From assembly GCA_027311705.1 (NCBI GenBank), contig DAICYJ010000140.1, forward strand, positions 1 to 53,859: a DNA stretch of 53,859 nt. The letters run 5' to 3'. Position numbers and translations under genes: made by a program. Numbering within the stretch: the stretch's first letter is position 1; every line of letters starts with the position of its first letter. This document shows, piece by piece, positions 7,811 through 32,816 of this stretch. The notes beneath the pieces are model-generated. The model made no database searches and had not been told where the DNA came from. It was given only the letters and a program-made list of their open reading frames with translations. Source of the stretch: Novosphingobium sp. (GTDB taxonomy: Bacteria > Pseudomonadota > Alphaproteobacteria > Sphingomonadales > Sphingomonadaceae).

Positions 7811-8867
7811 CCAGCGCGGCGAGGCGTTTGGCCTGGTCCTCGGCGATCAGCGCGTCGATCATTTCGCCAAGCCCGGTGCCCTCGAGGATTTCGGGCAAGC
7901 GGTGCAGCGTCAGATTGATGCGGTGATCGGTGACGCGGCCTTGCGGAAAATTGTACGTGCGGATGCGTTCGCTGCGGTCGCCCGATCCGACCATGGCCTT
8001 GCGCGCTTCGGCTTCCGCCCCGTGGGCTTCGGCGCGGCGCAGGTCATACAGGCGCGTGCGCAGCACCTGCATCGCCTTGTCCTTGTTCTTGTGCTGGCTG
8101 CGCTGGTCCTGCTGGATCACCACCAGCCCGGTGGGCAAGTGGGTGAGGCGCACCGCCGAATCGGTGGTGTTCACATGCTGACCGCCCGCGCCCGATGCGC
8201 GGTAGATGTCTATCTTGATGTCGCCGGGTTCGATCTGCACGTCGACTTCGTCCGGCTCCGGCAGCACGGCGACCGTCGCGGCGCTGGTGTGAATGCGCCC
8301 GCCGCTTTCGGTAACCGGCACGCGCTGCACGCGGTGGACGCCGCTTTCGTACTTGAGCTTGGCGAACACGCCCTGCCCGGCAATGTTGGCGACCACTTCC
8401 TTGAACCCGCCAAGGTCGTTGGCGTTGACCGAGACGAGCTCGATGCGCCAGCCCTGCTCGGCGGCATACTTTTCGTACATGCGATAAAGGTCGGCGGCGA
8501 ACAGCGCGGCTTCGTCGCCGCCGGTGCCGGCGCGGATTTCGAGCATGGCCGGCCGCACATCCGCCGAATCGCGCGGCAGCATGGCAATGGCGAGGCGGTG
8601 CTCGGCATCGGGCAACTCGGCGCGAATGCGGGCGATCTCCTCCTCGGCCAGTTCGCGCATTTCGGGATCGTCCAGCGCGGCGAGGCTGGCGAGTTCGCCC
8701 CGCATCTCGCGCACTTCGCCGGCGACGCGGGCGATCGGCTCGAGTTCCGAATAGTCGCGGCTGGCGGCCACGAAGTCCGCGCCTTCGAGCGTGCCGGATG
8801 CCAGCCGCGCCTCAAGTTCGGCAAAGCGCGAGGCGAGTTGGGCAAGGCGGGTGTTGGAAACGCTCAC
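7803..8867 (-). CDS. prfA: Peptide chain release factor 1
   Basis: Recognises UAA and UAG stop codons and triggers peptide release on the ribosome. The 354-residue length is standard. The catalytic GGQ lies at 228-230 ('[16 protein letters not shown]') and is the target of PrmC. The codon-reading tripeptide is P184-V185-T186 in '[14 protein letters not shown]', a PxT-type motif that marks RF1; RF2 would have SPF. It overlaps hisS by 4 nt (ATGA) and prmC by 8 nt, so the three genes form one translationally coupled operon. Confidence 0.97.
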
Positions 8868-10147: not shown

Positions 10148-10246
10148 GATCGCGCGCGCTTAGCGCGGTAACGCGCCGGTGAAAAGGATGGCGAAAAGGT
10201 TTGGGCCCCGGTTGCGGTTGAGACTTGTTCACGGCATGAAACCGGA

Positions 10247-12202
10247 ATGTCGCCAAAAACACTCGCCGCGTCGCTCCTCCCCGTCCTTCTCGCGTCCACA
10301 TCGGCGCTGGCCCAGGTCCAGCCGCCGGGTAATTCGCGGCCCGTGGCGGTGGCGATCGCACAGTCGGTTCCCGATGCGCAGGACATGGCCTTTCCCGGCA
10401 TGATCGCGCTCGATATCGACGCCAGTGACGTGGTGACCGGCGCCTATCGCGTCACCGAAACGATCCCGGTTGTACCCGGCACCACCCGGCTGACGCTGCT
10501 TTATCCGCAATGGCTGCCCGGCAACCACTCCCCGCGCGGCCCGATTGCAGAACTGGTCGACTTGCGCTTCTTTGCCGGCAATGCGCCGCTGGCGTGGAAG
10601 CGCGATCCGGTAGAACCCAATGCGTTCCATGTCGATCTGCCCGCCGGCACTGCGCAAGTCGTGGCGAAGTTCGTCCACACCTCGCCGCTGCGCGAAAGCG
10701 AAGGCCGCGTGACGATGACGCGCGAGATGCTGAACCTGCAGTGGGAGAAGATGAGCCTTTATCCCGCTGGGCATTATGTGCGGCAGATCCGCGTAAAGCC
10801 CACGGTCACGTTCCCTGCGAACTGGTCGGTGTTCACCGCGCTGGATGGCAAGGCGGCGCAGGGCAATCGGGTGACGTGGGGCGTTACCGACTATGAAACG
10901 CTGGTCGATTCGCCGATCTTTGCGGGGCTGCATGCCCAGCGCGTCGATCTCGGCACGGGCGTGTGGCTGGATGTAGTGGCCGACAAACCCGAGCTTCTGC
11001 CGCAAAAATCGCCCAACCTGCAGGCCTATCGCAACCTGGTGACCGAGGGCGATGCGCTGTTCGGCGCGCGGCACTTCGATCATTACGACCTGCTGACGGC
11101 GATGACCGATCGCATGGGCGGCATCGGGCTGGAGCATCACCGGTCCAGCGAAAACCAGATGGAACCGCGCACCTTGGTCGATTGGGCCGATGGCGACTGG
11201 GACCGCAATGTGCTGGCCCACGAATATGTTCATTCGTGGAACGGCAAGTTCCGCCGTCCGGCGCGGCTGTGGACGCCCGATTATCGCCAGCCGATGCAGG
11301 ATGACCTGCTGTGGGTCTATGAAGGGCAGACGCAGTTCTGTGGCTATGTGCTGGCCGCGCGGTCGGGCGTGCAGAGCAAGGACATGGTGCTGGGCCAGAT
11401 CGCCAGCAACGCGGGCGGCTTTACCCAGACGCCGGGGCGCGCATGGCGTTCGGTGGAGGATACCACGGCCGATCCCGTGCTCGGCTATGGCAAGGCCAAG
11501 CCGTTCCCGTCGCTGGCGCGCGGCACCGAATACTACACCGAAGGCGCACTGGTGTGGCTGGAGGCGGACCAGATCATCCGCGACGGCAGCGCCGGCAAGA
11601 AAAGCCTCGACGATTTCGCCCGCGCGTTCTTTGGGCTGCGCAATGGCGATTGGGGTGTAGTGCCCTATGAATTCTCCGATGTCGTCGCCGGCCTGAACGG
11701 GGTCTATCCCTATGACTGGGACACGTTCCTTAAGACGCGGATCATGACGCCGGGGCAGCCGGTGCCGCTGGGCGGGATCGAGCGCGGCGGGTATCGGCTG
11801 GTGTGGAAGGAAGAACCCAATCCCTATGACAAGGCGCGGATGAAGGCGAACAAGTTCCTGTCGCTCAACCATTCGCTGGGCTTTGCGGTGGACAAGGACG
11901 GCAAGGTCACTGGCAGCCGATGGGATAGCCCCGCATTCCGCGCGGGCGTGGTCACCGGCGTGGAGATTCAGGCGGTGAACGGCACGGCCTATGACGCCGA
12001 TGTGCTGAAAACGGCGGTCACTTCGGCCAAGGGCAATGGCAAGGCTGTGGAATTGCTCGTGAAACGCGACGACCGTGTCTACACGGTGACGGTCGACTAC
12101 CACGACGGGCTGCGCTGGCCCTGGCTCGAACGGGCACCGGACGCGCGCATCCCATCGGGGCTGGACCGGCTGCTCGCGCCCAAGGGGGCGGCGATAAAGT
12201 AG
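10247..12202 (+). CDS. Secreted M61 family metallopeptidase with PDZ domain
   Basis: A zinc peptidase of the M61 (glycyl aminopeptidase-like) family, 651 residues, exported by a Sec signal peptide ('MSPKTLAASLLPVLLASTSALAQ'). The N-terminal beta domain spans about residues 35-240. The catalytic domain contains the zinc motif H325-E326-Y-V-H329 in 'LAHEYVHSWNGKFRRP', with the likely third ligand E359 in 'LLWVYEGQTQF'. A C-terminal PDZ domain (about 545-620) shows 'FRAGVVTGVEIQAVNGTAY'. It probably trims peptides in the periplasm; the substrate is unknown. AACCGGA just before the ATG is a weak ribosome site. The DUF1345 gene follows 16 bp later and is likely cotranscribed. Confidence 0.9.
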   Translation: MSPKTLAASLLPVLLASTSALAQVQPPGNSRPVAVAIAQSVPDAQDMAFPGMIALDIDASDVVTGAYRVTETIPVVPGTTRLTLLYPQWLPGNHSPRGPIAELVDLRFFAGNAPLAWKRDPVEPNAFHVDLPAGTAQVVAKFVHTSPLRESEGRVTMTREMLNLQWEKMSLYPAGHYVRQIRVKPTVTFPANWSVFTALDGKAAQGNRVTWGVTDYETLVDSPIFAGLHAQRVDLGTGVWLDVVADKPELLPQKSPNLQAYRNLVTEGDALFGARHFDHYDLLTAMTDRMGGIGLEHHRSSENQMEPRTLVDWADGDWDRNVLAHEYVHSWNGKFRRPARLWTPDYRQPMQDDLLWVYEGQTQFCGYVLAARSGVQSKDMVLGQIASNAGGFTQTPGRAWRSVEDTTADPVLGYGKAKPFPSLARGTEYYTEGALVWLEADQIIRDGSAGKKSLDDFARAFFGLRNGDWGVVPYEFSDVVAGLNGVYPYDWDTFLKTRIMTPGQPVPLGGIERGGYRLVWKEEPNPYDKARMKANKFLSLNHSLGFAVDKDGKVTGSRWDSPAFRAGVVTGVEIQAVNGTAYDADVLKTAVTSAKGNGKAVELLVKRDDRVYTVTVDYHDGLRWPWLERAPDARIPSGLDRLLAPKGAAIK

Positions 12203-12218
12203 GCACGAAGGGGCAGGA

Positions 12219-12884
12219 ATGGCGCGCAGCGGCTGGCAACTCGGCAAGCGGATCGCGCCGCCACGCTTCGTGCTGTTCCTCGTTCTGCTGATCGCCGGCA
12301 GTTATGGCTGGAGCCGGTTTTCCGAAACGCGCGGACTTGCCGATTCGCTGGCGATGGGCTTCGATTTCGCTGCGGTGGGTTTCCTCGTGTCGCTCTGGCC
12401 GCTGCTGCGCGATTGCGATGTTGAAACCATGCGGCGGCATTCGGAAGAAAACGACGCCAACCGCGTGCTGGTGCTCGGCATCACCACGGTGCTCACGCTG
12501 GTGGTGATGGCCGCCATCGCGGGCGAGCTGCCCACCGCGAGCAAGGGCGATCATCTCGCGATGGGCAAACTGATCGGCACCCTGATGCTGACGTGGCTGT
12601 TTGCCAACGTGGTCTACGCGCTCCATTATGCGCACGCCTTCTATCGGTCGGACGAGGATGCGGGCCAAGATTCGGGCGGGCTCGACATTCCGGGCACCGA
12701 CACTCCGGACTACCTTGATTTCGCGTATTTCGCCTTCACGCTGGGCATGACCTTCCAGACATCCGACGTCCAGATCACCTCGCGCCCCATCCGGCGCATC
12801 GCCACGCTCCACAGCTTTGCCGCGTTCATCTTCAATATCGGCGTGATTGCCTTCACCATTAATGCACTCGGCGGCTCGAGTTAA
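12219..12884 (+). CDS. DUF1345 family inner-membrane protein
   Basis: A 221-residue membrane protein with about five hydrophobic segments: 'FVLFLVLLIAGSYGW', 'MGFDFAAVGFLVSLWPLL', 'LVLGITTVLTLVVMAAIAG', 'LIGTLMLTWLFANVVYALHYAHAFY' and 'FAAFIFNIGVIAFTINAL'. The family hallmarks 'HYAHAFY' and 'DFAYFAFTLGMTFQTSDVQI' are present. These resemble the filter region of two-helix channel proteins, and the function of DUF1345 is not established. It lies 16 bp after the M61 peptidase and just before the putative ppa promoter. Confidence 0.87.
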   Translation: MARSGWQLGKRIAPPRFVLFLVLLIAGSYGWSRFSETRGLADSLAMGFDFAAVGFLVSLWPLLRDCDVETMRRHSEENDANRVLVLGITTVLTLVVMAAIAGELPTASKGDHLAMGKLIGTLMLTWLFANVVYALHYAHAFYRSDEDAGQDSGGLDIPGTDTPDYLDFAYFAFTLGMTFQTSDVQITSRPIRRIATLHSFAAFIFNIGVIAFTINALGGSS

Positions 12885-12900
12885 TTCGACACAAGTATTG

Positions 12901-12928
12901 TTGCAGCGCACAAGAGCCGGCGCTAGAG
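12901..12928 (+). promoter_or_regulatory. Candidate promoter of ppa
   Basis: TTGCAG at 12901-12906, a 16-base spacer, then CTAGAG at 12923-12928, about 45 bp before the ppa start. The same arrangement (TTGCAC, 16 bases, CTAGAG) precedes the cytochrome gene at 51206, which supports both. No experimental evidence. Confidence 0.4.
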
Positions 12929-12972
12929 GCTGCCGAAACGACCCGGCCACACGGCCCAACCAAAGGCAGACC

Positions 12973-13521
12973 ATGCGCATCGACATGATTCCGACCGGCG
13001 ACAATCCCCCGGAGAGCCTCAACGTAGTGATCGAGGTGCCATCGGGCGGCGAACCCGTGAAGTACGAATTCGACAAGGCTTCGGGCGCGCTGTTCGTCGA
13101 TCGCATCCTGCACACGCCGATGCGCTATCCCGCCAACTATGGATTCGTGCCGCACACGCTGTCGCCCGATGGTGATCCGCTCGATGCGCTGGTGATCGCC
13201 CGTTCGCCGTTCGTCCCCGGCTGCGTCGTTCGCGCCCGGCCGATTGCGGTGCTCAATCTCGAAGACGAGCACGGCGGCGATGAAAAGCTGGTTTGCGTGC
13301 CGGTCGATTCGACCTTCCCGTATTATTCGGACGTGAAAGAGCGGGAAGATCTTCCCGAAATCGTGCTCCAGCAGATCGAGCACTTCTTCACCCACTACAA
13401 GGACCTGGAAAAGGAAAAGTGGGTTCGCGTTGGCAAGTGGGGCGGCGCTGAAGAAGCAAAGCAGGTCACTCTGGAAGCCATTGCCCGTTACGAAGAAGAC
13501 AAGGCCGCCAACCCCGCCTGA
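12973..13521 (+). CDS. ppa: Inorganic pyrophosphatase (family I)
   Basis: Hydrolyses pyrophosphate released by biosynthetic reactions, pulling them forward. The 182-residue soluble enzyme carries the family I signature D66-G-D-P-L-D71. Other conserved parts are 'EVPSGGEPVKYEFDK', 'TPMRYPANYGFVPHTLS', and 'HYKDLEKEKWVRVGKWGGAEEA'. The start at 12973 is preceded by AAAGGCAG and matches the family N-terminus; the track ORF runs 126 bp further upstream through non-homologous sequence. It is convergent with the mechanosensitive channel gene. Confidence 0.96.
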   Translation: MRIDMIPTGDNPPESLNVVIEVPSGGEPVKYEFDKASGALFVDRILHTPMRYPANYGFVPHTLSPDGDPLDALVIARSPFVPGCVVRARPIAVLNLEDEHGGDEKLVCVPVDSTFPYYSDVKEREDLPEIVLQQIEHFFTHYKDLEKEKWVRVGKWGGAEEAKQVTLEAIARYEEDKAANPA

Positions 13522-13523
13522 TT

Positions 13524-13559
13524 CCTGCGGTCGCAGGCCGTGCCGGTCACTCGACCGGC
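13524..13559. terminator. Two adjacent hairpins between converging ppa and mscS
   Basis: CCTGCG-GT-CGCAGG (13524-13537) and GCCGGTC-ACTC-GACCGGC (13542-13559) are perfect short stems in the 25-bp convergent gap; the second includes the channel gene's stop codon. Neither has a T-tract, so they may be Rho-dependent or 3'-end-stabilising hairpins rather than true intrinsic terminators. Confidence 0.35.
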
Positions 13560-14929
13560 CGGCTTGCGTCCAGCAAGTCGTTGCTTTCATCGTCGGTGGC
13601 GCGTTCGCGCGCCACCATGCGTTCGATGTGATGTTCGGGCGCCACATCTTCGGGCTTGAGATTTTCCGCCGCGATCGTGGCGGGCGGCGGGACCGGAACC
13701 GGTGCAGACCGCGCTGAAGTGTCGTTACCCGAAGGCGCAGCCCGCTCCACCTGAATCTTGTAGCTGCCGTCCGGAATCACGAAGCCGTTGTCGCGCAACG
13801 CGCGGCGCACCGCTTCGAACGCCAGCGTGCGCGCCTTGCCGAAACCGGTCTTGGTCTGGTCGACCCAGCCGGTGAAATGCACCACCTGAGTCGTGCCCGG
13901 CATTTCCGAGATTTCCGCCGTAGGCTCCGGCTTTTTCAGCACGAAATCGAGGGCCAACAGCGTCTCCAGCGCCAGTGTACGCGCCACGCACGGGTCGGAT
14001 GCATGATCGAGCGTCAAGTCGAACGCGAAGCGGCGCGTCGGATTGGTTGAAAAGTTCAGGATCACCGCCTTGAACACGGTCGAGTTCGGAATGCGCAAGT
14101 GGTTGCCGTCGAGCGTCATTAGCACGGTCGCGCGGCTGGTCAGGCGCACCACGCGGCCTTCGTGACTGTCGATGCGCACATGGTCGGTGGCGCGGAACGG
14201 CTGGCGCACCGACAGCATCAGCGACGACACATAGTTGTCGATCGAATCGCGTACTGCAAAACCCAGCGCAATACCGATCACGCCCGCGCCGCCCAGCACC
14301 GCGCCGAGCAAGGCCGTCGCGCCGACGATATCCAGCGCCAGCACGATCCCACCGACCACGAAGGCAAAGCGCAGTGCGGTGGCGACCAGATCGGCGAGGA
14401 ACGGGTTGGGCGCCAGCCGGTGCCACAGCTCGCGCCGCCCGGCGATGAAGTAGCCCAGCATGCCGACAAGGATGGCGACGACCACCGCTACGCCGATCAG
14501 CGGCAGCGCGCGCCACAGCCCCACCGCCTTGCCCGAAACGCCGCTCAGCGCAGGCGTCAGATTGCGATCGACCTCAAGATTGCGGGTCACTTGGTTCTGC
14601 ACCGTGACCACGCCCGCAAGCCGTTCGGCAATGCTGCCCGCCTGGTCGATGGCCTTCTGGTCCGCCACCGTGCCGGACAGGGTGACAACCCCGGCGGAAA
14701 CCTGCACCTGCACCGGCTTCAATGCCGAGATCTGGTCGAAGATCGCCCGTATCCGGCCGGTCAGGCGAGCATCGTCCGCGGCGCTGTTGTCGGCCTGAAT
14801 AGGCGATGGCGATGGCGCCGGAGTTGCGGCTGGGGCGGCGGCCAGCCCGGGTAGCGACTGTGCGGCCGCCACCGGGGCGATGATGGCAATCGACAGCGTA
14901 ACAAAAAGCATGCGCAGGAACTTGGTCAT
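13547..14929 (-). CDS. BON-domain mechanosensitive ion channel (MscS family)
   Basis: A 460-residue protein with an N-terminal signal peptide ('MTKFLRMLFVTLSIAIIAPVAAAQ') and a Pro/Ala linker. A periplasmic BON-like domain follows (about 50-125, with 'VQVSAGVVTLSGTVADQKAI'). Then come membrane helices from about 140, including the pore helix 'TALLGAVLGGAGVIGIALGFAVRDSIDNYVSS'. The MscS beta domain has 'PFRATDHVRIDSHEGRVVRLTSRATVL'. A long C-terminal tail is acidic and disordered. It should open under membrane tension to release solutes. BON domains bind phospholipid or peptidoglycan-associated ligands in other proteins, so the fusion may tether channel gating to the envelope. It is followed by the pmbA-like gene on the same strand. 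Confidence 0.88.
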   Translation of the reverse strand: MTKFLRMLFVTLSIAIIAPVAAAQSLPGLAAAPAATPAPSPSPIQADNSAADDARLTGRIRAIFDQISALKPVQVQVSAGVVTLSGTVADQKAIDQAGSIAERLAGVVTVQNQVTRNLEVDRNLTPALSGVSGKAVGLWRALPLIGVAVVVAILVGMLGYFIAGRRELWHRLAPNPFLADLVATALRFAFVVGGIVLALDIVGATALLGAVLGGAGVIGIALGFAVRDSIDNYVSSLMLSVRQPFRATDHVRIDSHEGRVVRLTSRATVLMTLDGNHLRIPNSTVFKAVILNFSTNPTRRFAFDLTLDHASDPCVARTLALETLLALDFVLKKPEPTAEISEMPGTTQVVHFTGWVDQTKTGFGKARTLAFEAVRRALRDNGFVIPDGSYKIQVERAAPSGNDTSARSAPVPVPPPATIAAENLKPEDVAPEHHIERMVARERATDDESNDLLDASRPVE

Positions 14930-14978
14930 GGCCCCTTAAGCGACCAGCCCCCGACGGGTTCCCGAAAAGGGCGGCGGA

Positions 14979-22253: not shown

Positions 22254-23126
22254 TTATTCTGCTGCAATCTGGCCGTCGCTGCCCGGCCGTTCGGACAACA
22301 TGCCCTGGATCATCCCTTGCAGGTTGGCATCATAGCGCGCGAGCACGGTGTGATCCTCGGCGGTCTCCCAATGCGTGATCAGTTCACGTCCGTTCCACCA
22401 ATGCAGGGCATAGCCCGGCGGATCGGCGACGATCAGCGCGCGCTGATCGGGCGTGTCGGGGTCTATGGGCCGCAGGTCCAGCGCCACTTGCGGCGCTGTG
22501 GATGGGCAGGTGGCAACCACCAGGTCTTCCCAATGCGTCGTTACCGCGCGGTGGATGTGGCCACACACCAGCCCGATCACGTTGGTGCGCCCGCGCAGGC
22601 AGGCTGCCAGCATTTCCACCCATGGCTCGGCGGGGTCGGTGTTCATCCACGCGATGCCCACTTCGATGGGCGGATGGTGCTGCACGATCAGCGTCTTGCG
22701 GGTCGTTTCCTCGTCCAGCCGCGCGTTCAGCCAGGCCGCGCGCACATCGCAGAATGCGCCGCCGTGGCGGCCTTCCTCCAGCGTATCGAGCACGATCACC
22801 CGCACGGGCAAGTCCTCGATCACATATTGCAGGAAGCCGTCGGCAAAGGCGACTTCGGGGAAAACGGCCTGAAACGTCGCGCGCTCGTCGTGGTTGCCCA
22901 GCGCATAGCGGACGGGGAAGGGCAGGTCGGCCAGTGCCTCGCGCAACCGGCGGTAGCTGTCGGCATCGCCCCGGTCGATCAGGTCGCCGGTTGCCAGCAG
23001 CAGGTCGGGCTGCGGGTTCATCGCGACAAGTTCGGCCACCACGCGGTCCAGCCGCTGGCGGTTGAATTCGCCGGGGCTATCCGGTTCGAAGCCCAGGTGA
23101 ATATCGGTGATTTGGGCGACCAGCAT
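22254..23126 (-). CDS. Class III cyclic-nucleotide phosphodiesterase-like metallophosphoesterase
   Basis: A 290-residue calcineurin-type phosphoesterase. The two-metal motifs are complete: D8-I-H10, G-D48, G-N78-H79-D80, H150-H151 and G-H190-I-H192. Order and spacing match the CpdA/Rv0805 class, whose members hydrolyse 3',5'-cAMP among other substrates. It has no signal peptide, so it is cytoplasmic. It is the last gene of the redox operon, starting 9 bp after the decahaem gene. The first gene of that operon has two cyclic-nucleotide-binding domains, so this enzyme may remove their ligand. Substrate assignment is inference, since many members of the superfamily act on other phosphodiesters. 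Confidence 0.85.
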   Translation of the reverse strand: MLVAQITDIHLGFEPDSPGEFNRQRLDRVVAELVAMNPQPDLLLATGDLIDRGDADSYRRLREALADLPFPVRYALGNHDERATFQAVFPEVAFADGFLQYVIEDLPVRVIVLDTLEEGRHGGAFCDVRAAWLNARLDEETTRKTLIVQHHPPIEVGIAWMNTDPAEPWVEMLAACLRGRTNVIGLVCGHIHRAVTTHWEDLVVATCPSTAPQVALDLRPIDPDTPDQRALIVADPPGYALHWWNGRELITHWETAEDHTVLARYDANLQGMIQGMLSERPGSDGQIAAE

Positions 23127-23135: not shown

Positions 23136-25016
23136 CTATTTCAGGATGGCCGGGAAGCGCGGCCGGTCCGCCACCGCCGTTTGTAGGGCCGGCGCTTTGC
23201 GCTTGTCGGCCGGTTTCCAGGGAGCATCGCTGTCCATGTGATACGCATGACACATCGCGCAGCCCGAATCGACCGGGTCCTTCACTTTAGCGGTGGCCAG
23301 TTTCGCGCCCGCTTCGCCAACATGGCACGAACGGCATCCGCCCGGCCCGTCCATGCCCGGCACCAGCAGGTCGCTGGCGTCGTTCGAACGCTCGGCCTTC
23401 ACGTGGCACGATGCGCAATCGGTCTTGCGGTGGTCCTTATGGTCGAACCAGCCGACGTGGTAATACCGGTCATTCTGCGCCACCCGCTGCACGGTAAAGC
23501 CGCCGGCCGCCGCGCTTCCGCCGCGATTGACGGTGTGGCAATCGAAGCACATCCCGCCCTTGGAAAATACTTGGGCCACCGCCTGATCGCCCTTGGTCGG
23601 ATAGAACCGCACCGCACGGGCATAATCCGCCGCGGTGGAGCGCAGCGCCGCATCGCCCGGCACCCGGCGGGCAAGGCCCGAAAGGTTGGCGGGCCGCGCC
23701 GGAGCGCCGCCGCGATAGAACGCGCGCAGATCGGCCACCACCTGTTCGGGTTCGCCATGCCGCAGCGTGCGGAACGTGCCGCCCACCTGGTCGAAGGTCA
23801 GGCTGTGGCAGCTTTCGCAGGCCTGCTCCATTTCCACCGGCTTGAACCGCGTGCCGCCGGCCTCGATCTTGTGACAATCCTTGCAGCCCAGCGAGTCATT
23901 GGTGGCGAACTGGCCGGGGCGGCGATGGACCATCTGCGCCACGCCGTTCACCTTGGACAAGTGCTGGCCGTGGGTGAACTTCAAGCCGTTGTTTTCCTTC
24001 AGCGTGTCGGTCCAAACCGCGCGCTGCAACAGCGGCTTTTCGCCGTCCATGCCGACGATCACCGTGGGCCGGAACTGCGGGTGCGCCGTCCCGAAATCGG
24101 CGGCGTCGGAGATCTTCGTATCGGGCAAGCGACCCTTCAATCCATCGTGGCAATCGGTGCAGAACTGTTGCCGGGTTGCGGGCATAGCACCCGCGCCCTC
24201 GTGCTCGGTGTGACAATCGACACACCTGCCCGCCGGACGATTGAACGCGGTCGCCACCGCGCGCTGGAATGCGGCGAAGCCCTGCGGCTCGCCCCGTGCC
24301 TTCAGCAGCCTTGCGCCGTCCTTGATATGCTGGTGCGCATCCTGCGTGTGGCAGGTGAGGCAGGCGTTGTCGCGCACCGCGACGAACGGCTCCACATGGC
24401 AGGCCTGGCAATCGTTCTGCAGCTTGCTGTGCGCAACGCTCAGGTGGCCGGACGACCACGCGGTATCGCCATGAACCCCCGCCGGTCGCCGCGCGTCCTT
24501 TTGAAGCGCCAGCGGCTGGTACGTCGCCCAGCTCCAGATCGGGATCGCCAGGAATGCCACCAGCATCAGCAGCGCAAAGGCCCAGGCCGATCCGCGCTTG
24601 CCCGGCAGCAATCCCTTCAGCGTGAACGCAGTGGAAAGCTCCACGTCGCCGGCGCTTTCCGACACCGCTTCCACGCGGCGGACGGTAAAGGTCGGCGCTC
24701 CGGTTTCGGGATCGGCGGAAAGGGTAATGCGATGGCCGCCGAAAGCCAGTTCGGCCCCGGTCGCCACGTCGAGTTCGCGCCGCGTGGTGCTGCGTCCGTC
24801 GACGTCGAACGGCTGATCGCCGATCGATTCGATCATCAGTTTGCCGCCCGAAAGCGGGCTGATCCGCGCATGGAACGGATCGACCGCCAGGTCGGGCAAA
24901 TGGATATCGCAGGCACCGTCGCGCCCAATGGTGATGGCATCAGCTTCGACGGCAGACGGGCGGACGATCTCTTCGCCGCTCGATTTCAGCGCGATCTGGC
25001 GGATCAGGAAGTTCAT
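23136..25016 (-). CDS. FHA domain - membrane helix - decahaem cytochrome c fusion
   Basis: A 626-residue protein with three parts. Residues 1-115 form an FHA domain (G31-R32, 'CDIHLPDLAV', H49-A50). Residues 144-166 are one membrane helix ('WAFALLMLVAFLAIPIWSW'). From 203 onward are ten CxxCH haem motifs in order: CQACH, CLTCH, CVDCH, CTDCH, CKDCH, CESCH, CFDCH, CASCH, CRSCH, CAMCH. Extra histidines ('THGQHL', 'FDHKDH') could be distal ligands. The expected topology is FHA in the cytoplasm and haems in the periplasm. The FHA serine usually before HA ('VSxxHA') is Asp46, so phosphothreonine binding may be altered or mimicked. The ATG at 25016 has GAGG upstream and starts 10 bp after the membrane-protein gene; the longer track start is less likely. 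Confidence 0.88.
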   Translation of the reverse strand: MNFLIRQIALKSSGEEIVRPSAVEADAITIGRDGACDIHLPDLAVDPFHARISPLSGGKLMIESIGDQPFDVDGRSTTRRELDVATGAELAFGGHRITLSADPETGAPTFTVRRVEAVSESAGDVELSTAFTLKGLLPGKRGSAWAFALLMLVAFLAIPIWSWATYQPLALQKDARRPAGVHGDTAWSSGHLSVAHSKLQNDCQACHVEPFVAVRDNACLTCHTQDAHQHIKDGARLLKARGEPQGFAAFQRAVATAFNRPAGRCVDCHTEHEGAGAMPATRQQFCTDCHDGLKGRLPDTKISDAADFGTAHPQFRPTVIVGMDGEKPLLQRAVWTDTLKENNGLKFTHGQHLSKVNGVAQMVHRRPGQFATNDSLGCKDCHKIEAGGTRFKPVEMEQACESCHSLTFDQVGGTFRTLRHGEPEQVVADLRAFYRGGAPARPANLSGLARRVPGDAALRSTAADYARAVRFYPTKGDQAVAQVFSKGGMCFDCHTVNRGGSAAAGGFTVQRVAQNDRYYHVGWFDHKDHRKTDCASCHVKAERSNDASDLLVPGMDGPGGCRSCHVGEAGAKLATAKVKDPVDSGCAMCHAYHMDSDAPWKPADKRKAPALQTAVADRPRFPAILK

Positions 25017-25026: not shown

Positions 25027-25923
25027 TCACCAGTAGAAGAAGACGCTGACGACATGCGCGGAAAGCGCCGCGATCAGCGCGAAGGTGACCGGCACGTGCA
25101 CGTAGAGCCATGCTTGAAGCCATGATTTCAGCTTCAGATGCCGACGCATCCGCGCCAGCATTGCTTCCTTGCGCGTCAGCAAGGCATCGACCTTCTCGAT
25201 CGGATCGTCGGCTACGCGCGGCTTGTTGGCACGCATCTGGCGCAATCCCGATGCGGCGCTGCGTGTGGCGTCGCGCGGATAGCGGCCCGTCAGGCGGTTC
25301 CAGAAGCTACCGGCAAAGGGGTCTTCCTCAAGGCTGCGATTGACGAGCGCGGCGGCTTCGGAATCGAGCGGCTGCGCGGCATCGTGGATCTGCCGGTCAA
25401 TCGATCGCAGCGCTTCGACCATCTGCTTTTCGGTGATCGCGCCGTCTTCGTCATAGCGGTTGTCGGATAGCGCGCGGGGCAGCGTGGCGTAAACCCAGAT
25501 GCCGAACATGCCGGAAACGATCACCAGCATCATCAGCCCCCAGGCCAGCGTGTGCACATTCCACCCGAATTCAAAACCCGAATGCAGCGTGCCGACCACG
25601 ATCAGCAGCAGGCCCAGATAGACATGCGCCGATGTCCACGCCTTCAGGCTCCAGCGCCCCGGCGTGATCGCCCGCTTGCGCACGCCCAGCATGGTCAGCC
25701 ACAGGATCAGCAGTGCGCCGATGGTGCCCAACGTATAGCCCAGCCACGTCGATCCGAAGTGCTGCCCCGGCAACGGCACGAAAATATACAGCGCGATCAG
25801 TGCCACCGCGAGCAGCGCCGAAATCTTCAGCCAGCGGCCCTTGCGGTGGGTGAGAAACCCCTCGTGCGTGCTGGTCCGTTGGCGGCTGGCACCCGTGCGG
25901 CGCTTTGATGCAATCGTCGCCAC
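25027..25923 (-). CDS. Cytochrome b-like integral membrane protein of the redox operon
   Basis: A 298-residue protein with five predicted membrane helices (about 32-52, 57-80, 96-116, 122-148 and 271-297). A long charged cytoplasmic loop (149-268) lies before the last helix. Histidines sit inside or at the ends of helices: H100 and H114 in 'SAHVYLGLLLIVVGTLHSGF', H124, and H276 and H290 in 'WLYVHVPVTFALIAALSAHVV'. This pattern suggests one or two b-type haems. I do not recognise a named family. Its position fits a membrane relay: it starts 3 bp after the flavoprotein/ferredoxin gene and ends 10 bp before the FHA-decahaem gene. Confidence 0.8.
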   Translation of the reverse strand: MATIASKRRTGASRQRTSTHEGFLTHRKGRWLKISALLAVALIALYIFVPLPGQHFGSTWLGYTLGTIGALLILWLTMLGVRKRAITPGRWSLKAWTSAHVYLGLLLIVVGTLHSGFEFGWNVHTLAWGLMMLVIVSGMFGIWVYATLPRALSDNRYDEDGAITEKQMVEALRSIDRQIHDAAQPLDSEAAALVNRSLEEDPFAGSFWNRLTGRYPRDATRSAASGLRQMRANKPRVADDPIEKVDALLTRKEAMLARMRRHLKLKSWLQAWLYVHVPVTFALIAALSAHVVSVFFYW

Positions 25924-25926: not shown

Positions 25927-28503
25927 TCAGGCCCCCTCGTTCTCAAGTCGCGCGACGGTCAGGAACTCGTCGGGCGAAACGCGGATCGCGGCCCCGGTCG
26001 GGCAGGCGCGCACGCAGCTCGGCCCGCCTTCGATGCCTGCACACATGTCGCACTTGATCGCCTTCTTGCGGTCCAGCGCCTCGTCCACCTGCGGGTCGCC
26101 GGTGTATTTCGTGTTCTTTTTCGACCACTTGTAAGGCGGCTCGCCTGGCCCCGGCCCATTGCCGAACAACAGCCAGTTCAGCAGCGACGGCTTCTTGGGC
26201 GGAACCTTGTCCATGCGGATCACGCCGTAAGGGCAATTGCGCTGACAGTTGCCGCAACCGATGCAGGTATCGTTGATGAACACTTCGCCGTCCGGCCCGC
26301 GATGGATCGCGTTGGGCGGGCAATCGGCCATGCAATGCGGGTGCTCGCAGTGGCGGCAGCTGGTCGGCACATGCAGGTGGGCAAAGCTCTTGCCGGCCTC
26401 GCGGTCCAGCCGCGAAAGGCCGTCGTGGCTGTCGGCGCAGGCCTTTTCGCAATTGTCGCAGCCCACGCAAAGCCGTTCGTCGATCAGCAGCACGTCGGTC
26501 GCTTCGCCCAGCCCCTGCGCGACGAGGAACTTGGCCTGTTCGGAATAGAGGTCGACGACGCCGGAGAACCCGTCCTTCTTCGATTCGATGAAGGCGTTGG
26601 TGCGCCGGCGGCCTTCCATGTCGTTGCGCGCGCGTTCCAGCAGCGCGGGCTTGGCATCCAGCACGCGGCGGAATGCCTCGCCATCGATCCTGATGACCTC
26701 GCTCTTGATCGCGGCGCGCACCGTGGCGGTGCGCTGTCCGCCATCGATCAGCGCCATTTCGCCCACGTAGGAACCGGCCGGCAGGTACGACAGGAACACC
26801 GGCTTCCCGCCGATGTCCTTTTCCACGATCATCGATCCCACGCGGATCACGAACACGTCCTTGTCGTCCGCGCCCTCGGTGATCACCGGCTCGCCCGCGC
26901 GCACCTGCATGATTTTGGCGGTATCGACCACTTCGCGCACGTCGTCGCTGCTCAGCCCCGATCCAAACATCTGCAGCAATTGCCGCTCGGTCGAGATGCG
27001 CTCGATCGCGCGCTTGGCGGTGGGCACCTGGCTCTGCAGCTTGAGCGCGGCGTTGCGGCTGATTTCCACGCAGATGCAGTCTTCGGCCGCCACGATGGTC
27101 GCGCCGCGCCGCCGCCCGGAAATCAGGCCCACTTCGCCGAAGATCGAGCCTTTGGGAATTGGCACGACCTTGCTGGAATCGTTCGGATCGATCCGAACGT
27201 GCACCGATCCATCGGCGATGGCGAACAGCGACGATCCCGGCGCGTTCTTCTCGAAGATCGTCTCGCCCTTCTTGTAGAAGCGCGCGTCCGAATCGAGCAT
27301 GAACTCGCGCATCTGCAGCGCGGTCATGCCATCGAGGATGGCGATATTGCCGCGCAGCAGCTCCAGCCATTCATTGACCGACTTGCGCCCCGGCAGGTCG
27401 GCGAACTTGGCTTCGAGCAAAGGCTCGTCCGCCGGTTTCAGATCGGTGTTGCCCGAAATGAACTCGATGACGTCATAGCCCTGGTTCATGCAGTGCTTGA
27501 TCAGCGGATAGCCCGCCAGCGCACCGATCACGAAAATGCCCGGCGCTGTCGATTCAAAGCTGGGCGAAAGCGTCGGGAAGGCCAGCCGGTCGGCACTGGC
27601 GAACTCGATGCCGCACCCTTCGACAAAGCCGCGCGGCGGGGCAGACCCGATACGCGCGATGATCCGGTCGCAGCGGATGCGTTCTTCGCCATCGCGCGTG
27701 GCCAGCGTGATCCAGCCCGGCTCCACCGCTTTGGTCTCGGTTTCATACCGGATCGCCAGCTTGCCGATGGCGTCGTCTTCCACCAGCGCCTTGGCGTTCG
27801 GCTCCTTCGCCGTCGGAAAGCTTTCGCGCACGTTGGTCGATTTCGGCGCACGGTTCAGCACCGTCACCACGTTGCCCTGCGCCGAATCCTCGGCCAGCCC
27901 GCGCGCGTTCTCGATCCCCGCATCGCCGGTGCCCACCACGATGATATGTTCGTCCAGGATCGCATAGGGATCGTCGAGCTGATACGTCACGTGCGGCAGG
28001 TCGGAACCGGGGCAGCGCATCAGGTTCGGGTTGCCCTGCGTGCCGATGGCCAGCACCACGTTCTCGGCCATCACCGTCTCGCCGCTGGTCAGCTCGATGG
28101 CATAGGGCGGGGCGAAACGCTGCACTTCGGTGGTCGTGCTCGATCCGTCGCGCGCGCGGGTGACGATCTTCTGCACCGAACCTTCGATCGCCGGGCCGGT
28201 GCCGCGAATGGATTTCACCTCGGCATTGTACTTCACGTTCACGCCCAGATCGGCGGTGCGCGCGGTCCATTTGTCGAGGATGTCTTCCTTCTTGCCCGCG
28301 TCGAAATCCTGATCGGACCGCAGGATCAGCTGCGATGGCGTAGCCATCACATGCTTGCCCTTCTGGTACTTGAAGATCGTGTCGGACAAGTGGCCCGATT
28401 TTTCGAGCAGCACGTGGTCCAGCTTGCGCGCAGCGGCACGGCTCGCGGCGCTCATCCCCGCCGGGCCAGAACCGATGATCGCAACCTTATAGACTTCGCT
28501 CAC
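25927..28503 (-). CDS. FAD/NAD(P) oxidoreductase with two cNMP-binding domains and four 4Fe-4S sites
   Basis: An 858-residue modular protein. Residues 5-350 are a pyridine-nucleotide flavoprotein (FAD motif G11-S-G-P-A-G16, NAD(P) motif 'VVGTGDAG' near 190). It lacks the CxxC of thioredoxin reductases. Residues about 395-510 and 520-630 are two cyclic-nucleotide-binding domains. Their phosphate-binding cassettes read 'FGEVGLISGRRRGATIV' and 'VGEMALIDGGQRTATV'. Residues 679-834 hold four ferredoxin cysteine quartets (16 Cys in the order of DmsB/NrfC-type subunits), including CVGCDNC and CIGCGNC. No signal peptide, so it is cytoplasmic. I chose the GTG at 28503 ('SEVYKVAIIGSGPAG', G-rich site 9 nt upstream) over the TTG at 28530. 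It probably passes NAD(P)H electrons to the membrane partner under cyclic-nucleotide control. Confidence 0.88.
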   Translation of the reverse strand: MSEVYKVAIIGSGPAGMSAASRAAARKLDHVLLEKSGHLSDTIFKYQKGKHVMATPSQLILRSDQDFDAGKKEDILDKWTARTADLGVNVKYNAEVKSIRGTGPAIEGSVQKIVTRARDGSSTTTEVQRFAPPYAIELTSGETVMAENVVLAIGTQGNPNLMRCPGSDLPHVTYQLDDPYAILDEHIIVVGTGDAGIENARGLAEDSAQGNVVTVLNRAPKSTNVRESFPTAKEPNAKALVEDDAIGKLAIRYETETKAVEPGWITLATRDGEERIRCDRIIARIGSAPPRGFVEGCGIEFASADRLAFPTLSPSFESTAPGIFVIGALAGYPLIKHCMNQGYDVIEFISGNTDLKPADEPLLEAKFADLPGRKSVNEWLELLRGNIAILDGMTALQMREFMLDSDARFYKKGETIFEKNAPGSSLFAIADGSVHVRIDPNDSSKVVPIPKGSIFGEVGLISGRRRGATIVAAEDCICVEISRNAALKLQSQVPTAKRAIERISTERQLLQMFGSGLSSDDVREVVDTAKIMQVRAGEPVITEGADDKDVFVIRVGSMIVEKDIGGKPVFLSYLPAGSYVGEMALIDGGQRTATVRAAIKSEVIRIDGEAFRRVLDAKPALLERARNDMEGRRRTNAFIESKKDGFSGVVDLYSEQAKFLVAQGLGEATDVLLIDERLCVGCDNCEKACADSHDGLSRLDREAGKSFAHLHVPTSCRHCEHPHCMADCPPNAIHRGPDGEVFINDTCIGCGNCQRNCPYGVIRMDKVPPKKPSLLNWLLFGNGPGPGEPPYKWSKKNTKYTGDPQVDEALDRKKAIKCDMCAGIEGGPSCVRACPTGAAIRVSPDEFLTVARLENEGA

Positions 28504-28613
28504 CGGCGCTTGCCCCCCGCAACACGGCAAAGTGGCGCTTTTTCAGCGCCTGCTCTCCCAACCCGATTTAGTGCGACCCCGGTCTTTCCAGGACTTTACC
28601 CGAAGGAACGCAG

Positions 28614-28642
28614 TTTGCCAGCCGCAAATTGCCAGCCGCGAA
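28614..28642. promoter_or_regulatory. Tandem 14-bp repeat with inverted symmetry in a divergent promoter region
   Basis: TTGCCAGCCGCAAA (28615-28628) is followed directly by TTGCCAGCCGCGAA (28629-28642). The first copy sits in the inverted repeat TTTGC-CAGCC-GCAAA. It lies between the flavoprotein and TPR genes (the spacer 28504-28762 has no gene), where a shared operator would be expected. The binding protein is unknown. Confidence 0.45.
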
Positions 28643-28762
28643 TTGGTGGCCCGGCGCAGGTCGCCTAGCCAAAGGCGTGTGCAGGCTGCTTGCCACGGGC
28701 CGGGCGGGCGGGATATGTCCCCGCGAACAAGGCGATGCGCACGCGTCGTTCAGGAGTTTGCG

Positions 28763-29764
28763 ATGTCCGAGGCCGAAACCACGCCTGCCCCCGCCGCTTC
28801 CCCGGACAAGGCCACGCCGGCCCGCGCGGGTCGGCTGGCGCTGGCCGCCGCTGCGGTCATGGCGGTCGTGGCGGGCGGCGTCGCCGTCTATCGCGGGCAA
28901 AAGGAAGAGGTAGCGATCGTCGCTCCGCCGTCGGTCAGCGAAAGCCAGGCTCCCTCGGTCGACGACGTGATCGCCAAGCTCGAAGCCAAGCTGAAGGACA
29001 AGCCCGACGATGCCGAAGGCTGGCGCATGCTCGGCTGGTCCTATTTCCAGACCGAACGCTATGCCGAAGCCGCCACCGCGTTGAAGCAGGCGACCAAGCT
29101 CGATCCCGAACATGCCGAGACTTTCTCGTTCCTTGGCGAATCGCTGGTGCTGGCCAGCAACGAGGAAGGCCACATCCCGTGGGATGCCAAGGCCGCGTTC
29201 GACAAGGCGCTGAAGCTCGATCCCAAGGACGCCCGCGCCCGTTATTTCAAGGCGGTGGCGATGGATCTGGGCGGGCAGCACCGCAAGGCGATCGCGGCAT
29301 GGTTCGCCCTGCTGGAAGATACGCCCAAGGACGCGCCCTATGCCGACGACATCCGCGAAGTGATCCGCAATGTCGGCACCAAGCACAAGATCGACGTGGA
29401 AAAGCGGCTGGCCGAAGCGCAGTTCGCGCCGCCGGCCAACGGCATGTCCACCGACGGTGGAGCTATCGCCGCTGCCGGCATTCCCGGGCCCTCGTCCGAC
29501 GAGATCAAGGCCGCGCAAGCCCTGCCCAAGGGCCAGCAGGAAGCGATGATCCGCGGCATGGTCGAAGGCCTTCAGGCCAAGCTGGAAAAGAACCCCGCCA
29601 ATGCCGACGGCTGGATCATGCTGATGCGCAGCCGCATGCAACTGGGCGAACCGGCCAAGGCCGGCAAAGCCCTCACCGATGGTCTCGCCGCATTCCGCAA
29701 CGATCAGGCGTCAGCGCGCAAGCTGCGCGAAGCAGCGGTCACAGTGGGCGTTCCGGGCGCCTGA
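28763..29764 (+). CDS. Membrane-anchored TPR protein, CcmI/NrfG-like
   Basis: A 333-residue protein with a single N-terminal membrane helix (about 23-43, 'GRLALAAAAVMAVVAGGVAVY'). Tetratricopeptide repeats follow: 'DDAEGWRMLGWSYFQTERYAEAATALKQATKLDP' is one typical unit, and a second TPR block lies near the C-terminus ('NPANADGWIMLMRSRMQLGEPAKAGKAL'). This resembles the periplasmic TPR part of CcmI/CycH and NrfG, which present apocytochrome c to the haem lyase. Its place beside the decahaem gene supports such a role, but other TPR functions are possible. The ATG at 28763 is preceded by AGGAG; the track ORF begins in the promoter region. It converges on the ScfR-like gene with a 4-bp gap. Confidence 0.8.
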   Translation: MSEAETTPAPAASPDKATPARAGRLALAAAAVMAVVAGGVAVYRGQKEEVAIVAPPSVSESQAPSVDDVIAKLEAKLKDKPDDAEGWRMLGWSYFQTERYAEAATALKQATKLDPEHAETFSFLGESLVLASNEEGHIPWDAKAAFDKALKLDPKDARARYFKAVAMDLGGQHRKAIAAWFALLEDTPKDAPYADDIREVIRNVGTKHKIDVEKRLAEAQFAPPANGMSTDGGAIAAAGIPGPSSDEIKAAQALPKGQQEAMIRGMVEGLQAKLEKNPANADGWIMLMRSRMQLGEPAKAGKALTDGLAAFRNDQASARKLREAAVTVGVPGA

Positions 29765-29768: not shown

Positions 29769-31175
29769 TTACCGTTCCGCAATCCGATAGGGCACCAGAT
29801 CGCGCTGGCTGGGATCGACGTCGATCGCCTTGTCGCTGGGGGGGAAGGCGCGCTGGTCGCAATCGTCGCGCGGGCAGATGCGGCAACTGGGTCCGATCCG
29901 GGCCACGGCATCCTCGCTGCGCAGGTTCAGCGCGTCGGCATAGACGAATTCGTCCGCCAGATCGGCCTCGCAGCCAAGGGCGACGGCATAGCGGCGCGGC
30001 GGGCGGTAGTAACTGCCGCTGGGCTTCACCAGGCCCTTGGCGATCGAAACATAGCGGATGCCGTCGGGCATTTCGGCCAGCTGCACATGGATGCGGTCGG
30101 GGATCGCCACCGCTTCGTGCACGATCCACAGCGGGCACGCCCCGCCGAACCGGCCGAATTGCAGCCGCGTGGCCGAATGGCGCTTGGTGATGTTGCCCGC
30201 CATGTCCACCCGGCAGAAGAACACCGGAATGCCGCGCGCCTGCGGGCGTTGCAGCGTGGAAAGCCGGTGGCAGGTCTGTTCGAAGCTGGTGTGGAACTGC
30301 TGGCGCAACCGGTCCACATCGTGGCGCATCGCCCGCGCGGCTGTGCGGAACCGTTCATAGGGCATGAGCAGCGCCCCCGCCGCATAGTTGCCCAGCCCCA
30401 CCGTCAGCAGATGGCGCGCCGCCTCGGTCTGCAACGGGGCCTGCGCCACGATGCCCGCGATCTGGTCCGAAAGCGCCAGCGCCGCCAGCTGATAGGCCAG
30501 CTGGAAGCGCCCGCTTTCGATCGGCTGGTTCGAATCGAGCACCAGATGGCGGCGCTCGGCATCGAACCGCCGCATTGGTCCGCCGCTGCGCCACTCCACG
30601 GTCACACCGTGCCGCCGCAACCAGTCCTGCATCGATTTGACGCGAGGGCTGGCCTCGTCACCTGCGATTTCGAGCGCCAGTGCTTCCGCCCCCCGGTCCA
30701 CGGCATCGACATAGTTGTTGGCCAGGTGAAACCAGTCGCGCGTCTCCTCCCACGGCATCCGCCCTCCGGCGGACAGCGTGCTGCCAATGGTCTCGTCCAT
30801 CATCTCCAGCCGCTGTCGTCCGCGCACATACAGCGCATGCAGCGCCACGAAACGGTCGGCAAATTCGGGAAACTGGCGGGCCAGCCGCTCCACCTGCTCG
30901 CCGGGCAGCGCGCCGCCCAGCAACGGATCGCCCAGCGCCTCACGCAGAATGTCGGCAACGCCATCGCGGTCGGTGGGGGCCAGATCGGCCCAGTCCACCG
31001 GAAAGGCGGCGTGCAGCGCGTCGGCCAGCGACGGGGTCAGGTGTCGCTCGTCGTTTTCCAGTTGCGAGAGGTAGGATGCGCTGATGCCCAGCGCGACCGC
31101 CATTTCGGCCTGCCGCACCCCTCGCCTTTGTCGCAGGGCGCGCAATTGCATTCCAGCAAAGAACCGTCGTTTCAT
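29769..31175 (-). CDS. ScfR-family short-chain acyl-CoA regulator (PccR/MccR-like)
   Basis: A 468-residue transcription regulator. Residues 8-60 are an XRE-type helix-turn-helix ('ALGISASYLSQLENDERHLTPS'). A middle region resembles the ImmA/IrrE peptidase fold but has lost its HExxH motif: residues 223-235 read 'RFQLAYQLAALAL'. The C-terminal ScfR domain ends with a cysteine cluster, C431-R-I-C434 and C439. In other alphaproteobacteria such proteins (PccR, MccR) sense acyl-CoA status and control propionyl-CoA and methylmalonyl-CoA genes. This one is divergent from pccB, which supports the same role. The ATG at 31175 gives the normal N-terminus; the 809-residue track ORF extends antisense through pccB and is spurious. 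Confidence 0.88.
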   Translation of the reverse strand: MKRRFFAGMQLRALRQRRGVRQAEMAVALGISASYLSQLENDERHLTPSLADALHAAFPVDWADLAPTDRDGVADILREALGDPLLGGALPGEQVERLARQFPEFADRFVALHALYVRGRQRLEMMDETIGSTLSAGGRMPWEETRDWFHLANNYVDAVDRGAEALALEIAGDEASPRVKSMQDWLRRHGVTVEWRSGGPMRRFDAERRHLVLDSNQPIESGRFQLAYQLAALALSDQIAGIVAQAPLQTEAARHLLTVGLGNYAAGALLMPYERFRTAARAMRHDVDRLRQQFHTSFEQTCHRLSTLQRPQARGIPVFFCRVDMAGNITKRHSATRLQFGRFGGACPLWIVHEAVAIPDRIHVQLAEMPDGIRYVSIAKGLVKPSGSYYRPPRRYAVALGCEADLADEFVYADALNLRSEDAVARIGPSCRICPRDDCDQRAFPPSDKAIDVDPSQRDLVPYRIAER

Positions 31176-31193
31176 TCGCGCGCCGCCACATTC

Positions 31194-31224
31194 TTTGCAA
31201 AGTCCGCCTTTGCAACTTTGCAGA
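31194..31224. promoter_or_regulatory. Triple TTTGCA operator candidate between scfR-like gene and pccB
   Basis: Three same-direction copies occur in 31 bp: TTTGCAAA (31194), TTTGCAAC (31209) and TTTGCAGA (31217). The motif TTTGCAAA is what I recall for PccR-type regulators, which bind paired copies. It sits 18-50 bp upstream of the regulator's own start and within the 114-bp gap to pccB, so it could control both directions. Confidence 0.6.
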
Positions 31225-31289
31225 TTAACATTGGACAGCGCGATTGCAATCGGCCATCGGGCCTCGATTGACCACTTTGGGGCACAGCT

Positions 31290-32816
31290 ATGTCCGCTAA
31301 CATTGCCGAAATGGAAAGTCGCCGTCAGGCAGCCGCGATGGGCGGTGGGCAAAAGCGCATCGATGCGCAGCACGCCAAGGGCAAGCTGACCGCGCGCGAA
31401 CGTCTCGAAGTCCTGCTCGATGAAGGCAGCTTCGAAGAAGTCGATACTTACGTCGAACACAACTGCGTCGATTTCGGCATGCCGGAAACGACCATTCCGG
31501 GCGACGGCGTCGTCACCGGATCGGGCACGATCAACGGCCGGCTGGTCTTCGTGTTCGCGCAGGATTTCACCGTGTTCGGTGGCGCGGTTTCCGAACGGCA
31601 TGCGATGAAGATCTGCAAGATCATGGACAGCGCGATGAAGGTCGGCGCGCCGGTGATCGGGCTCAACGATTCGGGCGGTGCGCGCATCCAGGAAGGCGTC
31701 GCGTCGCTCGGCGGTTATGCCGAAATCTTCCAGCGCAACGTGCTGGCGTCGGGCGTGATCCCGCAACTTTCGCTCATCATGGGGCCTTGCGCGGGCGGCG
31801 CGGTCTACAGCCCTGCGATGACCGACTTCATCTTCATGGTGAAGGACAGCAGCTACATGTTCGTCACCGGGCCGGACGTGGTCAAGACGGTGACCAACGA
31901 GATCGTGACGCAGGAAGAACTGGGCGGCGCGGTAACGCACACCACCAAGACCTCGGTCGCCGATCTCGCCTGCGAGAACGATATCGAAGCGCTGCTGCTG
32001 GCGCGCGATTTCTTCGATTACCTGCCGCTGTCGAACCGCGAGGAAGCGCCCGAACGGCCGACGTCTGACCCCTATGACCGCAGCGAGCCCAGCCTCGACA
32101 CGCTGATCCCGGCATCGGCCAACCAGCCGTACGACATGCACGAAGTGATCCGCAAAACGCTCGACGAAGGCGATTTCTTCGAAGTGCAGCCCAAGCACGC
32201 GGGCAACATCCTGTGCGGTTTCGGCCGGATCGAAGGCAAGACCGTGGGCGTCGTCGCCAACCAGCCGATGGTGCTGGCGGGCTGCCTCGATATCAATTCG
32301 TCAAAGAAGGCCGCGCGGTTCGTGCGCTTCTGCGACGCGTTCAACATTCCGATACTCACTTTCGTCGATGTGCCCGGTTTCCTGCCCGGCACGTCGCAAG
32401 AGCATAACGGCATCATCAAGCACGGTGCCAAGCTGTTGTTCGCCTATGCCGAAGCGACCGTTCCCAAGATCACCGTGATCACCCGCAAGGCCTATGGCGG
32501 CGCGTATGACGTGATGGCATCGAAGCACCTGCGCGGCGATCTCAACTATGCGTGGCCCACCGCCGAAATCGCGGTGATGGGGGCCAAGGGCGCGGTCGAG
32601 ATCATCTTCCGTGGGCTTTCGGCCGAAGGCATCGCGGAAAAGACCAAGGAATACGAGGACCGCTTCGCCAACCCATTCGTGGCGGCGAGCAAGGGCTTTA
32701 TCGACGAAGTGATCTACCCGCATTCGACCCGCCGCCGGATCGCGCTCGGCCTGCGCAAGCTGCGCAACAAGAGCCTTGAGAACCCGTGGAAGATGCACGA
32801 CAACATTCCACTGTGA
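31290..32816 (+). CDS. pccB: Propionyl-CoA carboxylase beta subunit
   Basis: The carboxyltransferase half of propionyl-CoA carboxylase, which makes (S)-methylmalonyl-CoA. The 508-residue protein shows the N-terminal '[27 protein letters not shown]', the oxyanion-hole and substrate regions '[20 protein letters not shown]' and '[18 protein letters not shown]', and '[19 protein letters not shown]'. The C-terminus '[17 protein letters not shown]'-like tail ('[11 protein letters not shown]') is typical. It is the first gene downstream of the ScfR-like operator and works with PccA, encoded 4 kb further on. Confidence 0.96.

Follow-up and report, generated by a model that had tools for sequence, protein, structure and literature searches.

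The window analysed here, a stretch of 53,859 nucleotides from a Novosphingobium sp. genome, carries on its minus strand (23136..25016) a gene for a 626-residue protein in which translation, Pfam matches and a homologue alignment delineate an FHA domain, a transmembrane (TM) helix and a decahaem cytochrome c. We placed the start Met at 25016, where homologues begin; ORF inspection also finds an in-frame ATG upstream, at 25055. The FHA domain spans residues 1-105 (24702..25016, minus strand; Pfam, alignment with GarA and an AlphaFold2 model), with its Pfam core (PF00498), which scores 23.6 bits where 20.7 are required, at residues 28-91. Residues 1-115 were modelled as an all-beta fold with pLDDT mostly 83-92, and the best PDB fold matches of this model were the FHA domains of OdhI and GarA, CT664 being also among the fold matches. 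A chance or marginal Pfam match was ruled out by the fold model together with conservation. The hydropathy scan detected one strong hydrophobic stretch, at residues ~142-165 (24522..24593, minus strand; score 2.17, against 0.63 for the next best 19-residue window), also seen in the model and preceded by PGKR, which by the positive-inside rule suggests an N-in, C-out topology. Haem attachment to c-type cytochromes takes place in the periplasm, so the FHA domain must lie in the cytoplasm.

The predicted periplasmic part (residues 196-600; 23217..24431, minus strand), delimited by alignment, holds ten CxxCH motifs, starting at residues 203, 219, 265, 286, 378, 400, 490, 534, 561 and 586, and ten further His (196, 230, 272, 312, 349, 352, 420, 526, 529 and 593) that are kept in all or all but one sequence. 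Class III/c7-type cytochrome domains were also matched in this protein by Pfam. By count, each of the ten haems has a candidate distal His in a putative pairing, which argues for an electron wire with no open catalytic haem rather than for an enzyme. The AlphaFold2 model of the decahaem part is unreliable (pLDDT mostly <50) and too poor for fold comparison. The sequence-only reading had described a fusion of an FHA domain, a single membrane helix and ten haem sites, and Pfam, hydropathy and the CxxCH count bear this out. No other FHA domain turned up in the source genome, which is 84% complete.

The FHA-cytochrome is the third gene of an operon, after a flavoprotein and a b-type membrane protein, with gaps of about 3-10 bases. 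The flavoprotein (25927..28530, minus strand; Pfam and alignment) is an 867-residue ORF of the FAD/NAD(P) type with two cyclic-nucleotide (cNMP) domains and four [4Fe-4S] motifs; its start is likely at about 28503, because homologues match only from residue ~10. Its FAD/NAD(P) domain is TrxR/YpdA-like according to profile matches. The first cNMP-binding domain (residues 417-498; 27037..27282, minus strand; Pfam and alignment) contains the cassette FGEVGLISGRRRGAT, and the second (residues ~540-625, borders approximate; 26656..26913, minus strand; alignment) the cassette VGEMALIDGGQRTAT. Glu466 and Arg475 of the first phosphate-binding cassette, and Glu591 and Arg600 of the second, are invariant in 55/55 homologues; both domains keep these cassettes intact and are predicted to bind a cyclic nucleotide. 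Four class III cyclase genes are present in the source genome. The polyferredoxin part (residues 683-850; 25981..26484, minus strand; Pfam and alignment) has 16 invariant Cys in four groups. The second gene (25027..25923, minus strand) encodes a cytochrome b561-like membrane protein of 298 residues, recognised from profile matches, helix prediction and alignment, with five predicted membrane helices and a loop of ~115 residues (150-268) that the positive-inside rule would place in the cytoplasm. Besides His124, it has invariant His at 100/114 and 276/290, two pairs spaced 14 that point to two b-haem sites, as in two-haem transmembrane cytochromes b. A Foldseek search with its model retrieved nothing meaningful (best E 0.13).

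Two flanking genes recur with this cassette and were assigned from profile matches and synteny. Downstream lies a SpdA/CpdA-like metallophosphoesterase of the class III phosphodiesterase type (22254..23126, minus strand), and a phosphodiesterase-like gene of this class is found 3' of the cassette in most Sphingomonadales loci; it has the class III metal-ligand motifs, which are invariant, and the SpdA profile (NF050112) scores 129 bits, below its equivalog cut-off of 400. On the other side, a divergent TPR protein with a CcmH/CycH-type TPR domain (28532..29764, plus strand) has its counterpart beside the cassette in most Sphingomonadaceae loci, and is possibly a dedicated maturation factor for the multihaem cytochrome c.

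With one genome scanned per species, homologous loci numbered 15, at 28-80% identity; they lie in Sphingomonadaceae, in MAGs of Alcanivorax and Stagnimonas and in another alphaproteobacterial MAG. In alpha- and gammaproteobacteria alike, the FHA-TM-decahaem architecture is conserved, with identities of about 24-80%. A full-length FHA-cytochrome was present in 15/399 Pseudomonadota genomes sampled, seven of them outside Sphingomonadaceae, and in 118/301 Sphingomonadaceae genomes sampled. The flavoprotein occurs together with it in exactly the same 15 of the 399 genomes, and the order of the three genes is retained in essentially all ~54 loci, from Novosphingobium to the Alcanivorax and Stagnimonas MAGs. 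In two loci of one other Pseudomonadota genus (L066 and L067), the flavoprotein and b protein form one fused ORF, which argues that they work together. These fused ORFs are ~1120 residues long (L066, 3052-6423; L067, 2850-6206), and the FHA-cytochromes that follow them have nine CxxCH motifs, not ten. An orphan cNMP/FAD/Fe-S flavoprotein paralogue was also seen (L083, 8485-10962, on G001:C17), with neither a b protein nor an FHA-cytochrome gene nearby.

A second gene set accompanies the cassette. In the Alcanivorax and Stagnimonas loci, two further loci (G154, G368) and that of one distant alphaproteobacterium, genes A, B and C come after the cassette, with D usually nearby, while in Sphingomonadaceae D-A-B-C is a separate operon, often distant from the cassette. 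A is a lipoprotein with three HbpS-like domains; B, an exported protein of ~600 residues with barrel-like sequence and an aromatic C-terminal residue; C, a large exported cytochrome that combines ten haems with LVIVD repeats; and D, a tetrahaem cytochrome. In the source genome they lie on the minus strand of locus L112 (contig C140), at 13533-14948 (D), 11554-13533 (A), 9581-11557 (B) and 5022-9578 (C). This segment (5022-14948) is unlinked to the window; its D has one CX4CH in addition to the four haem sites, and its C has 1518 residues.

B was found in 12/399 Pseudomonadota genomes, all among the 15 bearing the cassette, and in 119/301 Sphingomonadaceae genomes, comprising 118/118 with the cassette and, among the 183 without it, a single fragmentary MAG that is 67% complete. 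The two loci are >40 kb apart or on different contigs in 30/48 genomes tabulated, so their co-occurrence does not merely reflect linkage; the corresponding hypergeometric values (about 10^-20 and 10^-84) ignore relatedness and are not taken here as probabilities. Three deep-branching genomes (G001, G034 and G153) have the cassette with B absent and D not found, for which reason the cassette may also serve other periplasmic acceptors. Among Sphingobium plasmid records, the FHA-cytochrome is encoded on twelve and B likewise on twelve, almost all demonstrably the same records, and on the conjugative plasmid pMSHV of S. herbicidovorans (NZ_CP020539.1) the two operons are neighbours. The plasmids with cassette and D-A-B-C genes, which include pMSHV and the megaplasmids AP0273xx, are ~1 Mb in size; on pMSHV of Sphingobium herbicidovorans MH, the annotation of the genes goes no further than 'cytochrome c3 family protein', 'hypothetical protein' and the like.

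Taken together, these components suggest a trans-envelope electron route. The FAD of the flavoprotein would take electrons from NAD(P)H in the cytoplasm and pass them along its four [4Fe-4S] clusters; the membrane protein would accept them at its two b-haem sites, and from there they could reach the ten putatively bis-His haems of the FHA protein and continue to tetrahaem D, the decahaem-LVIVD protein C, the outer-membrane-barrel-like B and the HbpS lipoprotein A. The tentative assignment of B as an outer-membrane barrel follows its sequence pattern and C-terminal aromatic residue. C of the source genome matches the MtrC/MtrF domain (PF22113) marginally, at 32.2 bits for a cut-off of 30, and its location on the cell surface is putative.

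Several known systems share parts of this arrangement. With MtrCAB of Shewanella it has in common an inner-membrane supply, a periplasmic decahaem, a putative outer-membrane barrel and an MtrC/MtrF-like cytochrome, and residues 532-594 of the FHA-cytochrome resemble in sequence a chain of PDB entry 6r2q, which we take to be MtrA. In contrast to MtrCAB, the decahaem is tethered to the inner membrane here, and the HbpS lipoprotein, the LVIVD part and the cNMP and FHA domains are additional. The system was not assigned to MtrCAB/Pcc, as B has no detectable homology in Pfam, NCBIfam or PDB sequences. The Geobacter ext cluster (extHIJKLMNOPQS) likewise combines an unconventional porin with several multihaem cytochromes in one cluster (PMC5877670); C is distantly ExtM-like, far below the cut-off, and no counterpart of ExtI, Rieske or ExtKL was identified. 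The Hmc-type transmembrane redox complexes of sulfate reducers also comprise an Fe-S protein on the cytoplasmic side, a membrane protein and a multihaem c in the periplasm, with weak HmcA and HmcB matches here that fall far short of the cut-offs (HmcA 21 against 400), but differ from our system, which has a flavin, cNMP and FHA domains and a dihaem-b-like membrane protein. Membership of the ExtM, SpdA, SctD or HmcA families was rejected throughout on scores below the curated cut-offs. By analogy, the system may operate as porin-cytochrome conduits do, with electrons supplied from the inner membrane.

It is conceivable, though in our view rather unlikely, that the second operon instead handles haem or iron or reduces a metalloid, and that the cassette merely feeds electrons into the periplasm. 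The three HbpS-like domains of A would fit such a role, as would the distant likeness of C to ExtM, which belongs to the cluster whose porin ExtI affects selenite/tellurite reduction; against it, the ExtM profile (NF040943) scores 58-72 bits for an equivalog cut-off of 800, and any substrate is conjectural. We consider it somewhat less probable still that the conduit runs inward, with NAD(P)+ or the quinone pool receiving electrons from a donor in the periplasm or outside the cell. Multihaem chains can in principle run either way and the sequence does not fix a direction, but flavoproteins of the TrxR/YpdA type more often oxidise NAD(P)H, and the genes beside several loci, for an NADP-type glutamate dehydrogenase or for acetolactate synthase and aldehyde dehydrogenase, weakly suggest the disposal of reducing power. 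In L063, L065, L073, L076, L082, L112, L116 and L118, the cassette or D-A-B-C repeatedly has as neighbours genes for NADP-specific glutamate dehydrogenase, for acetolactate synthase plus aldehyde dehydrogenase, or for both, a hint of a tie to NADPH balance or overflow metabolism.

The sequence-only reading had noted Gly31-Arg32, His49 and, in place of the canonical serine, Asp46 (codon at 24879..24881, minus strand), and alignment with GarA indeed sets Asp46 on the serine of VSxxH. Gly31-Arg32 is present in 54/54 FHA-cytochromes and His49 in 51/54, while residue identity at the Asp46 site is among the more variable in the domain (n = 54: D 13, E 13, A 10, T 5, N 5, M 2, G 2, P 2, Q 1, S 1), being acidic in 26/54. 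Asp occurs mainly in Novosphingobium and close relatives, with Glu, Asn, Ala or Thr in other sphingomonads and Gly or Ala in the Alcanivorax and Stagnimonas copies; the sole Ser is in the L067 sequence. The phosphothreonine (pThr)-contacting Asn of the NGT loop is also lost, and its column is not conserved. As a control, other FHA domains of Pseudomonadota matched by the same profile have Ser in 14/14 recognisable VSxxHA motifs and keep the NG loop. Of the residues that read pThr canonically, Ser and Asn are thus lost while Gly-Arg, the structural His and the fold are kept, so the phosphate-reading side appears to be gone and the scaffold retained.

These results agree with the earlier suggestion of weakened phospho-recognition and give no support to the importance that it attached to a Ser-to-Asp exchange: scored as Ser versus Asp across the fusions, as had been proposed, the site lends no support to a shared 'constitutive' switch. 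Asp as a phosphomimetic that makes binding constitutive was likewise rejected, given that the site varies freely and that the phosphate belongs on the ligand, for which reason an acidic pocket residue should repel that phosphate and not mimic it, making the idea mechanistically weak. The direct FHA/multihaem fusion, which that reading called unusual, is real and conserved, and we found no description of one in searchable papers; the reading did not extend to the wider electron-transfer system.

Noncanonical docking by FHA domains has precedents. GarA and OdhI, actinobacterial regulators that are the closest solved FHA domains by sequence and fold, are soluble, keep canonical VSRRH and NGT and are switched by their own N-terminal pThr, whereas the domain studied here has lost the Ser, the VSRR Arg and the Asn and forms part of a membrane cytochrome. 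The unphosphorylated form of GarA binds metabolic enzymes directly (PMC5448819). SctD/YscD/MxiG/CT664 of the type III secretion inner-membrane ring share the layout of cytoplasmic FHA, TM helix and periplasmic domain, and MxiG/SctD, a one-helix inner-membrane protein, uses a noncanonical FHA domain to bind and recruit cytoplasmic MxiK (PMC12358396). Unlike in SctD, the periplasmic part here consists of ten haems and not of a ring domain; Yop-YscD_cpl matched weakly (22.1 against 33.2 bits), which places the protein outside the SctD/YscD family, and there were no secretion genes in the neighbourhoods examined. With MxiG/SctD and GarA as analogous cases of non-phospho FHA docking, the domain is probably a degenerate, phosphorylation-independent docking domain.

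A canonical reader, in which the FHA domain binds a partner pThr, for example at Thr164 or Thr220 of the b-protein loop, through Arg32 and substitute contacts, so that a kinase controls assembly, seems to us distinctly unlikely. Arg32 is invariant, two Ser/Thr kinase-like genes are present in the source genome, Thr replaces Ser in 5/54 homologues, and within Sphingomonadaceae Thr164 is found in 41/41 and Thr220 in 38/41 b proteins. Such a role is nonetheless difficult to reconcile with the single Ser among 54 sequences, the frequent acidic residues and the lost Asn, and neither a family-wide conserved Thr in the cytoplasmic parts of the b protein nor a kinase gene in the neighbourhoods examined was recognised. 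Even more improbable is an inert N-terminal anchor or folding cap with no specific partner, which the variable contact residues and the slightly higher mean entropy of the FHA part (2.09, versus 1.83 for the cytochrome part) would allow, but which fits poorly with a domain that is never lost in >120 homologues from two classes, whose codons are under purifying selection similar to that on the haem part (dN/dS about 0.07-0.32) and whose invariant Gly-Arg is not obviously needed by a mere anchor. Poor conservation or frequent absence of the FHA part, which had been named as evidence against its significance, was not found: it is present in every FHA-cytochrome, with the match split over two pieces in a few.

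We therefore favour, with a probability of roughly 0.6, a reading in which the FHA-cytochrome, anchored in the inner membrane, relays electrons in the periplasm as part of a trans-envelope conduit, with an FHA domain that docks its partner with no need for pThr and with cyclic nucleotides adjusting the process. The FHA domain would assemble the electron path by docking the flavoprotein, the loop of the b protein on the cytoplasmic side, or both; a cyclic nucleotide at the two cNMP domains would tune either activity or docking, a control that the phosphodiesterase encoded alongside may reset. Judging from its domains, the gene set is probably cyclic-nucleotide-controlled. More speculative, and put forward tentatively as something we would not yet expect to hold, is the broader proposition of second-messenger-gated extracellular electron transfer widespread in sphingomonads, in which the cNMP domains and a phospho-blind FHA clamp would switch an NAD(P)H-to-outer-membrane haem wire.

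Sphingomonads are usually regarded as plain aerobes. If the proposition is correct, about 40% of the sampled Sphingomonadaceae genomes would encode a complete route taking electrons of NAD(P)H as far as the outer membrane, cyclic-nucleotide control being built into the enzyme level and not the promoter, and the view of redox balance in aerobic, pollutant-degrading Sphingomonadaceae would change. FHA domains would also gain a role as non-phospho assembly clamps of redox complexes. The main interest of the locus lies in the conserved conduit bearing cNMP domains, above the detail of the FHA Asp. Searching the open-licence PMC literature for FHA, cNMP or LVIVD domains in combination with multihaem proteins, and for multihaem cytochromes of Sphingomonadaceae, turned up no description of this system.

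Beyond the TPR gene, the window also encodes a short-chain acyl-CoA regulator (29769-32198, minus strand; ScfR-type, with an IrrE-like peptidase domain); its neighbour is a gene for a carboxyl transferase (31290-32816).
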